Positions 34,846 to 38,283 of a stretch of DNA of 64,000 nt are shown in pieces. A model generated the notes under the pieces. That model did no database searches and was not told where the DNA came from. It saw nothing but the letters and a program-made list of their open reading frames with translations. The stretch lies in NCBI GenBank assembly GCA_002705055.1, contig PAHY01000022.1, positions 31,548-95,547 on the forward strand. Direction: 5' to 3'. Position 1 is the stretch's first letter. Every line of letters begins with the position of its first letter. The translations under genes and the position numbers were made by a program. This DNA comes from Planctomycetota bacterium. GTDB lineage: Bacteria > Planctomycetota > UBA1135.

Positions 34846-36163
34846 TCCCACCCCTGAACAGCTCCGCGACCCGCTCGCCGGAGAAGGCCTCGAAGAGCAG
34901 CAGGCGCCGTCCCCCGCCCTCGACGAGGAAAACCCATTCTCGTCGATGATGGCGCGCTTCGACGAAGCGGCCGCGCATCTCGGCCTTTCCCCCGACGCCT
35001 ACGCGGTCCTCCGCCGCCCGGACCGCCAGTTCAAGTTTGCGATCCCGGTGCAGTACCCGGACGGCACCGTTCGCGTCCATAAGGGCTACCGCATTCGCCA
35101 CAACCTCTCGCTGGGTCCTTGCCTGGGCGGCCTGCGCCTGGAGAGCGACCTGAAGCGCGAAGAACTCGCCGCACTCGCTGGCTGGGCAACCTGGAAGAAC
35201 GCCGCCCTCGGCATTCCGTTTGGCGGCTCGGCAGGTGGGGTCGATTACGACCCGCGTGGCCAGGCCGAGGTAACGACCGAAGCCGTCGTCCGGCGCTACA
35301 CCGCTGGCCTGCAGGATCTGCTCGGCCCTGAGACCGACATCCTCTCCCCCGATCTGCACTGCAATGAGCAGATCATGGCCTGGTGCCTGGACACCTACTC
35401 CATGCACGTGCGCCATACCGAGAACGCGGTCGTGGTCGGCAAGCCGGAAGGCCTCGCCGGCACGCACGGGCGCGACTGCGCCGTGGGTCGCAGCGCGATC
35501 GTGCTGATGGAACGCCGCCTGGCCACGATGGACATCTCCGGCCCAGTCGACATCGTCGTCCAAGGCGCCGGCACGGTCGGCGCGCAAGTCATGCGCGAGG
35601 CCGTCGCCCGCGGTCACCGCGTCATTGCCGCCGGCGACTTCCGCGGCGCCGCCCACAATCAGGCCGGGCTCGACATCGAAGCTCTCCTCGCTCACCGCGC
35701 CGCCCACGGCTCCGTCGAAGGCTTCGCAGGCGGCGACGCCATCGACCCCTCCGAACTGCTCGCGCAACCCTGTGATGTCCTGATCCCGGCGGCCACTGCC
35801 GACCAGATTCACAGCCGCAACGCCGCCTCGATTCAGGCCAAGCTCATCGTCGAAGCCGCCAACGGCCCGACCAGCAAGCGCGCCGACGGCATCCTCTCAG
35901 ACCGCGGGATCCCGGTGGTCCCTGATCTCCTGGGGAACGCCGGGTCTGCTGTGATCGCCTACTTTGAGTGGGTGCAGAATCGGATGGGTTATCAGTGGAC
36001 TGAGGAGATGGTCTTCGAGCGCCTGGACCGGATGGTGATTGAGGCGTACGACAAGGCGCGGAAGATTGCGAAGGAGCATCAGGTGGGGCTGCGGCTTGCG
36101 GCTTGCATTCTTGGGGTGAAGCGGGTCGCTTACTTCGACAATATGCGCGGGTTATACGCCTGA
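34838..36163 (+). CDS. glutamate dehydrogenase paralogue lacking catalytic residues (probable regulatory subunit)
   Basis: 441 residues, collinear with the upstream GDH after a ~21-residue N-terminal extension. Substrate-site residues are lost: the first Lys is Leu96 ('GPCLGGLRL'), the catalytic Lys is Ala132 ('PFGGSAGGV'), and the Ser before YFEW is Ala ('[12 protein letters not shown]'). The middle Lys120 ('TWKNA'), Asp172 and the nucleotide-binding '[10 protein letters not shown]' remain. It is full length and uninterrupted, so it is not a pseudogene. Thermus thermophilus has a comparable GdhA/GdhB pair in which one subunit regulates the other; that is the best model. The TGA stop lies within the terminal repeat of the adjacent insertion sequence. 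Confidence 0.88.
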
Positions 36164-37201
36164 GGCTGGCCCCTTTGAGTGGCGTTGACTGGGCGACATC
36201 CAGCTCGGCCAGCGCCATTGGAATGCCTCGCGAAAGGTGAATGCTGCTTGGCAGACTCCGGCGCTTTGAGCTGGCGTTGTCCGCGTCGAGTTGGTGACTC
36301 CTCGCACGTAGTTTCGATAGACACACCAGATCCACGCGTGCCGCTGCAGCCCCGTTCGCCGCTTGCTGTGCCCCCAACTTCGGCGAACGAGGCACGACAT
36401 GCCATCGCGCATCATGGCAAGCGTGTGGTTGATCGGAAATAGTAGGTTCTTCTTGTTCCGCAGTGTCCTACTGCTCTCGGTGGAGTGAATGACCCGGCGG
36501 CGCGGCATGGCCTTTCGACATTCCACTGGATAGGTCGGCTTTCGATCAGTCTGGAGGTAGACAGCACAGCCGGGGCGAAGCAGCTGCGCAAGTGTTCGGA
36601 AACTACGCTGGACGCAAGCACTCGAATCCGATGCCCGGCGCCCTTCAAGCGCCTCCAATTCGATCGCCCTCTCTTCGTTGCGGCGATGCAATGGACGACG
36701 CGAGGCCAGCCTTCCCGCGCGCAGGTCCACGACGAAGTAACTTCGGCGCTCAATTAATACACTCATCGTGACCGGCTTGAGCAGACGGTGATGCTCGAAT
36801 GTCTCGAGTTCATCGAGCTGAAACACACCTGATATCCCGCCTTGCGCCCGAGAAGAACTCAGCTTCCACCGATGGAAGTCTCGCGCGATCTGAGCCATGC
36901 GAACAAATCGCCGCTCGACGGTCTTGCGATTCACTCCCAAGATGCGAGCGGCCTGGCGGCGCGTCACCTTCGAGCAGAGCAACGGCAGTAAGGCGAGGTG
37001 CAGCACAGGCTTCCGATAGCGGAAGCTACTTCGGTACGTTTGGGAACTGAAGCTCCGGTCGCAGGCCGAGCAATGAAAACGTGGGATCCACCGCCCATCG
37101 CATTGGCGGCGATAACGCCCACGGCGGATCCAACGAAATGCCCGTTCTCCGTATGCCGATGGGCATCCTATTCGCGGGCAGAAGAGTGGTATGAAACGCA
37201 A
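36152..37201 (-). CDS. DDE-type transposase with N-terminal zinc ribbon
   Basis: About 349 residues from a TTG at 37201. N-terminal 'FCPRIGCPSAYG' and 'FHCSACDRSFSSQTY' form a zinc ribbon; 'TRRQAARILGVNRKTVERRFVRMA' is a helix-turn-helix; 'FQLDELETFEHH' and 'LQTDRKPTYP' fit RNase-H-fold acidic residues; 'NKKNLLFPINHTLAMMRDGMSCLVRRSWGHSKR' in parts and 'WIWCVYRNYVRG' resemble a transposase group common in Acidobacteria, Myxococcota and Planctomycetes. The frame runs through the left terminal repeat and stops (TAA) in the tail of the GDH paralogue. TTG is preferred to the GTG at 37222 because AAGGAGG lies 4 nt before it. Confidence 0.75.
   Translation of the reverse strand: MRFIPLFCPRIGCPSAYGERAFRWIRRGRYRRQCDGRWIPRFHCSACDRSFSSQTYRSSFRYRKPVLHLALLPLLCSKVTRRQAARILGVNRKTVERRFVRMAQIARDFHRWKLSSSRAQGGISGVFQLDELETFEHHRLLKPVTMSVLIERRSYFVVDLRAGRLASRRPLHRRNEERAIELEALEGRRASDSSACVQRSFRTLAQLLRPGCAVYLQTDRKPTYPVECRKAMPRRRVIHSTESSRTLRNKKNLLFPINHTLAMMRDGMSCLVRRSWGHSKRRTGLQRHAWIWCVYRNYVRGVTNSTRTTPAQSAGVCQAAFTFREAFQWRWPSWMSPSQRHSKGPASGV
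36161..36187 (+). repeat. IS left terminal inverted repeat
   Basis: Begins TGAGGCTGGCCCCTTTGAGT and ends GGCGTTG; pairs with 37270-37296 (25/27). Its first three bases are the GDH paralogue stop codon. Confidence 0.85.
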
Positions 37202-37234
37202 TCGTCCTCCTTGTGCTGTCACAAGGAGGACGAT
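37201..37234 (-). promoter_or_regulatory. perfect hairpin sequestering the transposase ribosome-binding site
   Basis: Two perfectly complementary 15-nt arms (ATCGTCCTCCTTGTG / CACAAGGAGGACGAT) around a 4-nt loop. The 3' arm on the minus strand contains AAGGAGG, the only Shine-Dalgarno for the transposase TTG. In a transcript reading in from outside (for example from the thioredoxin-like gene, same strand) the whole hairpin forms and should hide the site, as known for IS10, IS50 and IS200. No T-run follows, so it is not an obvious terminator. Confidence 0.75.
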
Positions 37235-37269: not shown

Positions 37270-37296
37270 CAGCGCCACTCAAAGGGGCCAGTCTCA
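37270..37296 (-). repeat. IS right terminal inverted repeat
   Basis: Read on the minus strand it begins TGAGACTGGCCCCTTTGAGT and ends GGCGCTG. Its first three bases are the stop codon of the thioredoxin-like gene. Confidence 0.85.
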
Positions 37297-38283
37297 TTCC
37301 CAGACCTTGTCGAGCCAAAACTCAGCCCGCTTCGCGACCTTCGTCGCCCCATGCTTCTCAACAAACTTCTCCAAAGCCCGGCGATGCTTACCCTTCGGAT
37401 CTTCGTAGAGCTTCTTCTCCAGCTTCCGCAGATCACTCGCCGCACTCAGCTCAGCCTGCATCGCATCTGACTTCAGATCCTCCTTCAGGGCTTCAATCCC
37501 TTCCTGCACGGCGTCGACACCCTTTGCGACTTTCACATAGTCCTTCAGGGCGTCTTCCGCTGCCTCGGCGTAACCGTTCTCGGCCATCCAGCGGATGCGA
37601 TCGAGGTGAGCTTGTGCGCGTTGCAGGAGCTCGGCGCGCACCTTGGTTGCTGCTTCCGCCGTGGCTGCGTCGCCACCGCTGGGCTTTTCGATCTGCTTGT
37701 CCAGAACTGCCAGCGCCTTGCTGTACTCGCCCTTGCGCAGGTCGACAAATGCCTTAGCGACCGGCTTGGGGAGATCTTCGGGCGCGTCCTTTCCAGCATC
37801 GACCAGTTCTTCGATCTTCTCCTCCATCTGCTTCATCAGACGAGTCGAGATCCCCTTCATGACCACACGGCCATCGGCGTCGAGCAGGGCGAAGTTGGGC
37901 AGACCACCCGAGCCCGTGGAGAACGGGTACTCATTGGTCCACATCGCGTTCGTCCCCAGCCACTTGCGTTCGAGCTGACGACGGACGATCTCTTGATCGG
38001 TCCCACGCTGGGAGTGCACGAAGATGACCTGGAGATCCTCTCCGTACTCTTGTTGGAGTTTCACGGCCGCCGGCACGGACGACCCATTGCAGGGGCCTCA
38101 GTTGATGCCCCAGAACTCGACCAGCACCGGCTTGCCGCGCAGATCGGCGAGGGTCTTGACGCCCATGCCGTTCTGCACCGGGGTGCGGAAGCTGTACTCC
38201 GGCGTATCGCCTTCCTTGACCTGCGCCGAGAGCGGCGCGGACGCGAGCAGAGCGCCCGCAACGAGGAGAGAGGTCCGTTTCAT
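37294..38283 (-). CDS. secreted thioredoxin-like (TlpA-type) selenoprotein, in-frame TGA = Sec62
   Basis: Read as one 329-residue protein with TGA at 38098-38100 as selenocysteine. Signal peptide 'MKRTSLLVAGALLASAPLSA'; the thioredoxin fold starts 'GDTPEYSF', 'LRGKPVLVEFWGIN', then U62-G-P-C65-N-G-S-S, 'VIFVHSQRG' and 'GGLPNFALLDADG' with cis-Pro129. Residues ~165-329 are a helical C-terminal domain. The frame is open for 61 codons before and 267 after the TGA, and the TGA falls exactly where the family has the first Cys of CGPC. A stem-loop follows directly. The stop codon lies in the IS terminal repeat. Alternatives are a nonsense mutation or sequencing error (TGC to TGA), less likely at this precise codon. 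No selA/B/C/D in the window. Confidence 0.82.
38065..38097 (-). promoter_or_regulatory. candidate bacterial SECIS element
   Basis: The 33 nt directly after the in-frame UGA fold as a hairpin: arms GGCCCCUGCAAUGG and CCGUGCCGGCGGCC, 11 pairs of 14 (two G-U) with one 2-nt and one 1-nt mismatch, and a 5-nt loop GUCGU. A GU at the start of the apical loop, a short upper stem and a position immediately after UGA are features of bacterial SECIS hairpins read by SelB. The loop G is 14 nt from the UGA, at the short end of the usual range. Folded by eye only. Confidence 0.6.

Follow-up and report, generated by a model that had tools for sequence, protein, structure and literature searches.

Does a TGA codon within an otherwise intact reading frame mark a broken gene, or is it read as selenocysteine (Sec)? 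The question is raised by a gene on the minus strand of contig PAHY01000022.1, located in a stretch of 64,000 nucleotides that was analyzed as a whole and is called the window in the following. The frame from 38283 to 37297 comprises 329 codons and its sole interruption is the TGA at 38098-38100, which stands where the first cysteine codon of a CxxC site is expected. An initial annotation had proposed a probable new selenoprotein at this position, and its coordinates of the frame, the in-frame TGA and the motif proved to be exact. Our comparisons make it very probable that this TGA encodes Sec in a predicted exported thiol-disulfide oxidoreductase of the TlpA/ResA type with a modelled helical C-terminal domain, from a probable planctomycete, and for Sec at residue 62 the support is as good as sequence can give.

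37294..38283, minus strand: whole predicted selenoprotein gene, from the ATG at 38281-38283 to the terminal TGA at 37294-37296; 329 residues with the in-frame TGA read as Sec
38098..38100, minus strand: in-frame TGA, codon 62, predicted Sec62 at the first position of U-G-P-C (motif WGIN-TGA-GPCNGSS)
38089..38091, minus strand: TGC for Cys65, the predicted resolving residue of UxxC; the 36 rows of the alignment do not vary at this column

Conservation of the TGA among relatives

A translated search of 61 genomes, the own genome and 60 relatives, gave family matches in 59 of them. Of the matches listed, 31 reach E <= 1e-40; 29 of these contain exactly one in-frame TGA and two contain none. At the codon level, 34 orthologous loci were read (L018-L047 and L052-L055, own locus included): TGA occupies the site in 32 of them and TGC in the other two (L034 and L053), and a cysteine is located three residues past the site codon in all 34. 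The two residues in between are variable (GP, GG, PG, PS, PY, PT, PN, GS, GT, GA); the Cys copies have AP and SG. At this conserved redox position the family carries TGA within the frame, and some homologues carry cysteine. The initial annotation had considered a chance hit of this codon unlikely, in agreement with its presence in 32 of 34 loci; the Cys/Sec exchange at residue 62 that it suggested to look for is found as a TGA/TGC exchange at that very codon, and instead of broken frames or unrelated residues the homologues have intact frames with TGA or TGC at the site. A second search, in a draw of 294 genomes of the phylum, found matches at E <= 1e-20 in 25 genomes, 27 in all; 22 of these matches contain one TGA and five have none. 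Furthermore, 34 lower-scoring loci picked out of the 61-genome match list (L056-L071, L082-L099) have TGA at the site in 29 cases, mostly within an ATWUGPC-like motif, and Cys in five.

Sec machinery and the hairpin behind the TGA

The source genome (3.85 Mb in 64 contigs, 85% complete) encodes SelA, SelB, SelD and the Sec tRNA (tRNA-Sec), each above the curated family cut-off; this is the complete set that the initial annotation had named for checking. The tRNA-Sec reaches 72.9 bits and has the anticodon TCA, and the next-best matches for SelB and tRNA-Sec are under the cut-offs. SelD (L048, own genome C19:46289-47215) has a single in-frame TGA in the motif SGUAAK (UxxK), which makes it likely that SelD is itself a selenoprotein. 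The UxxK form of SelD is listed in PMC13188914. In addition, the same genome contains a second TlpA-like gene with a TGA in the motif WGDWUGPC (L080, C35:73000-75300), likely encoding another selenoprotein.

A hairpin of the bacterial selenocysteine insertion sequence (bSECIS) type is located downstream of the TGA:

38065..38084, minus strand: bSECIS-type hairpin; consensus 7-bp stem 38078-38084 / 38065-38071, loop CGUGCC at 38072-38077
38074..38076, minus strand: GTG (Val70) within the hairpin loop, the start codon chosen in database proteins

The loop CGUGCC begins 20 nt past the UGA, and the consensus hairpin satisfies the bSECIS model as given in PMC13188914 (hairpin 16-37 nt past the UGA, G within the first two loop positions). 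We aligned 32 Sec orthologues from the TGA, so that the stem corresponds to columns 17-23 with 30-36. All seven stem pairs show changes on both sides (shuffled mean 4.1; 3 of 500 shuffles as high), 87.1% of the stem cells pair compared to 68.7% in column shuffles, stem covariation is 0.446 versus 0.143 (0 of 500 as high) and there are 13 further pair types versus 9.7 (23 of 500 as high). Sliding the partner strand by 1 to 3 columns lowers the pairing to 24-65%, and RNAalifold recovers six of the seven pairs unprompted. As the hairpin stretch is coding, we used a null model in which synonymous codons were resampled 2000 times according to each gene's own usage. Here 195 of 224 stem pairs are observed versus 102 +/- 6, complete hairpins occur in 20 of 32 genes versus 0.1, and the loop CCGUGCC is present in 29 of 32 versus 4.1 expected (maximum 12). 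Of the 32 Sec genes, 31 have the core loop CGUGCC; the three Cys copies (L034, L053, L111) all lack it, and six of seven further Sec orthologues (L110-L116) keep it.

Several observations weigh against this picture. The sel genes are located on contigs C19 and C64 and the studied gene on C24, so that their link depends on assembly binning. SelA is found in 59 of the 61 genomes, and such a nearly universal gene discriminates little by its co-occurrence with the Sec gene; in G015 (90% complete) SelA was not found and a Sec copy is present, which is likely an assembly gap. Column shuffles keep the relatedness of the sequences, L110 is a Sec orthologue without the loop CGUGCC, and six rows (L020-L023, L047, L055) form just three to four of the seven pairs in the fixed register, their hairpins being shifted or interrupted as judged by eye. 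In terms of stability, the 22-nt hairpin of the studied gene has -11.2 kcal/mol when one U is bulged and the loop is UGC (z -1.56); the z values of the four 22-nt hairpins considered are -1.56, -1.69, -2.30 and -0.40, and free folds of 50, 70 and 100 nt do not exceed shuffled sequences in stability (z -0.18, 0.36, -0.11).

One rival explanation is a nonsense mutation or an assembly error, leaving a broken gene from which only a 61- or 260-residue fragment is made. In fact, the standard list of open reading frames (ORFs) yields only a 260-amino-acid GTG fragment at 37294-38076, which bears out the initial annotation's expectation of a 260-residue protein that lacks its catalytic residue, and the database contains such proteins. 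Nevertheless, 32 of the 34 loci share this TGA position, with coding kept on either side of it, P0002, a database protein with 99% identity to the part past the TGA, begins at the same GTG, and a covarying hairpin follows the TGA, so that we regard a broken gene as highly improbable. If the code were altered, or a suppressor tRNA present, UGA might instead stand for Cys, Trp or some other standard amino acid. This would fit the finding that non-TGA copies carry Cys at the site, but the genome has the full Sec set including tRNA-Sec, and the SECIS-type loop goes with the TGA copies and not with the Cys copies. Moreover, the gene itself and 13 of the 33 other orthologous loci end in TGA, which indicates that TGA is also used as a stop and gives this kind of decoding very little probability.

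It might also be that two proteins are made by design, with a programmed stop after codon 61 and an internal GTG start; the thioredoxin domain so produced would lack its catalytic residue. The GTG at 38074-38076, unchanged in all 32 of the 32 Sec genes, speaks for this reading, but the hairpin loop accounts for it. The split would also cut through the thioredoxin fold, which the structure model predicts as one domain spanning the TGA site, the N-terminal 61 residues contain G50, P52, W58 and G59 as invariant positions of the 36-row alignment, and the Cys copies are single full-length ORFs. We therefore give a two-protein design hardly any chance and prefer the reading of the TGA as Sec. If this is correct, SelB with Sec-tRNA would bind the hairpin past the UGA and insert Sec62, and the signal peptide would export the protein. 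Sec62 may attack disulfides, or other oxidized sulfur or peroxide substrates, and could form a selenenylsulfide with Cys65 that is reduced by a partner, and the helical domain probably binds some partner or a substrate.

Architecture, known families and Sec/Cys history

38224..38283, minus strand: MKRTSLLVAGALLASAPLSA, likely signal peptide with the cleavage site placed by eye
37786..38214, minus strand: TlpA/ResA-type thioredoxin domain, about residues 24-166, with Pro129 as invariant cis-Pro candidate
37297..37785, minus strand: helical C-terminal domain, residues 167-329, with weak TPR-like resemblance

By hydropathy, 41 of 41 family N-termini contain an 11-residue stretch with a mean above 1.6. 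The modelled protein has a thioredoxin fold, a redox pair spaced by two residues and a cis-Pro candidate, which places it in the TlpA/ResA/DsbE-like fold class, and the initial annotation of a thioredoxin fold continuing past the TGA with cis-Pro129, followed by a helical C-terminal domain, is in line with the invariant Pro129 and the modelled fold. No clear fold match was obtained for the C-terminal helical domain.

UxxC selenoproteins with a thioredoxin fold are already known (PMC1088965, PMC2398784, PMC13188914), and the 2026 review PMC13188914 lists UxxC redoxin-like and thiol-disulfide-isomerase-like selenoproteins. The studied proteins thus appear to be a new subfamily of a known kind. 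The selenoprotein assignment of the initial annotation is supported, whereas the word "new" does not apply to the type but to the subfamily; what appears to be new is the two-domain subfamily and its Sec/Cys history. A close likeness is to the Redoxin (PF08534) UxxC selenoproteins and Prx-like 3 (pfam08534, UxxC; PMC13188914, PMC2398784), which are also redoxin-like thioredoxin-fold proteins with Sec first in UxxC; compared by names and motifs, the studied protein adds the helical C-terminal domain, and it may overlap with these families. PF08534 scores 25.9 bits against the studied protein with a cut-off of 26.6, and matches 23 of the 36 family rows at E 1e-3. The thiol-disulfide isomerase-like proteins (cd02966, UxxC) and UGC-containing TlpA selenoproteins (PMC13188914, PMC1088965) share the TlpA-like fold class and Sec in the redox motif. 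However, the latter have the motif UGC and not UxxC; four UxxC sequences from the Sargasso Sea are also described.

Two further selenoprotein families were rejected. The VPGUxxT type 1 model (NF041382) matches seven of the 36 family rows via the C-terminal region (best E 1.2e-9), but the studied protein gives no match at E 0.01 and has the motif UGPC, not VPGU; P0018, the best-matching row named among the Cys orthologues, reaches 38 bits with a cut-off of 350. The Omp28-related selenoprotein GOS_C (NF045500) likewise gives no match to the studied protein at E 0.01 and matches one of the 36 rows (E 1.2e-4). From the extracytoplasmic oxidoreductases ResA, TlpA and DsbE (CcmG) the studied protein differs by Sec in place of the first Cys and by the extra helical domain, and it is far under the curated cut-offs for ResA or TlpA proper (NF002854 and NF047696; 25 vs 170 and 28.5 vs 230 bits). 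The relatives of DsbA-like, DsbG-like and thiol:disulfide interchange proteins are periplasmic. Sec-containing forms of all three are tabulated in PMC13188914, and the initial description as an unusual exported selenoenzyme was therefore overstated.

The more surprising part is the repeated Sec/Cys switching together with adjacent Sec-Cys gene pairs. In an IQ-TREE phylogeny of 81 rows (68 Sec, 12 Cys, one neither; careful setting), well-supported branches force eight Sec/Cys switches. With equal costs the root is Sec (nine steps vs 11 for Cys), with seven changes from Sec to Cys and one from Cys to Sec. A twofold penalty on Sec-to-Cys changes results in a tie of the Sec and Cys roots (15 each), and with a threefold penalty the root turns to Cys with 15 Sec gains. 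As the search query was a Sec protein, the sampling is biased. In three genomes (G190, G204 and G315; loci L117, L118 and L120) a Sec and a Cys copy are adjacent on the same strand with Sec upstream, and 87, 90 and 138 nt separate the Sec stop codon from the following start, which was assigned by script. At L111 (G217) the two copies are adjacent and divergent, and G026 and G051 likewise contain both forms. A precedent for a selenium switch is FmdB in M. kandleri, whose Sec and Cys forms are differentially expressed according to PMC4807772. It is conceivable, though somewhat less likely than not, that Sec is ancestral and Cys was derived about seven times, often in a duplicate beside the Sec gene, forming a selenium-responsive two-enzyme switch outside the cytoplasm. 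If true, this history would contradict PMC13188914, according to which bacteria rarely replace Sec by Cys. The natural Sec/Cys series, sometimes adjacent in one genome, makes the advantage of Sec over Cys outside the cytoplasm directly testable.

Database entries and genomic neighborhood

We examined the first 32 of 37 database clusters (P0002-P0033). In 27 clusters the protein starts past the TGA, and in 25 of these its first residues are (M/V)P.., the counterpart of the loop GTG of the hairpin; three clusters are full-length Cys proteins (P0017-P0019). P0022 has an unrelated N-terminus, and P0032 is full-length and lacks both Sec and Cys at this position (WGHTTWADA), possibly a redox-dead member of the family. 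Most of this subfamily of likely exported redox enzymes is thus stored without signal peptide and catalytic residue, and its recognition provides a corrected annotation in Planctomycetota and a covarying bSECIS alignment.

The gene is flanked upstream by NAD kinase and dxs and downstream by glutamate dehydrogenase. A transposase-like ORF (36152-37222, minus strand) is located between the selenoprotein gene and glutamate dehydrogenase; it reaches 27.5 bits against an IS1 model (cut-off 100). No match to it was seen among 36 other loci compared, whose flanks measured at most about 1.5 kb. In this comparison the order of neighbors is retained in L023 and L026 and partly in L019, which is truncated by a contig end. 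The relatives of Dxs carry names that are nearly all from Planctomycetota.
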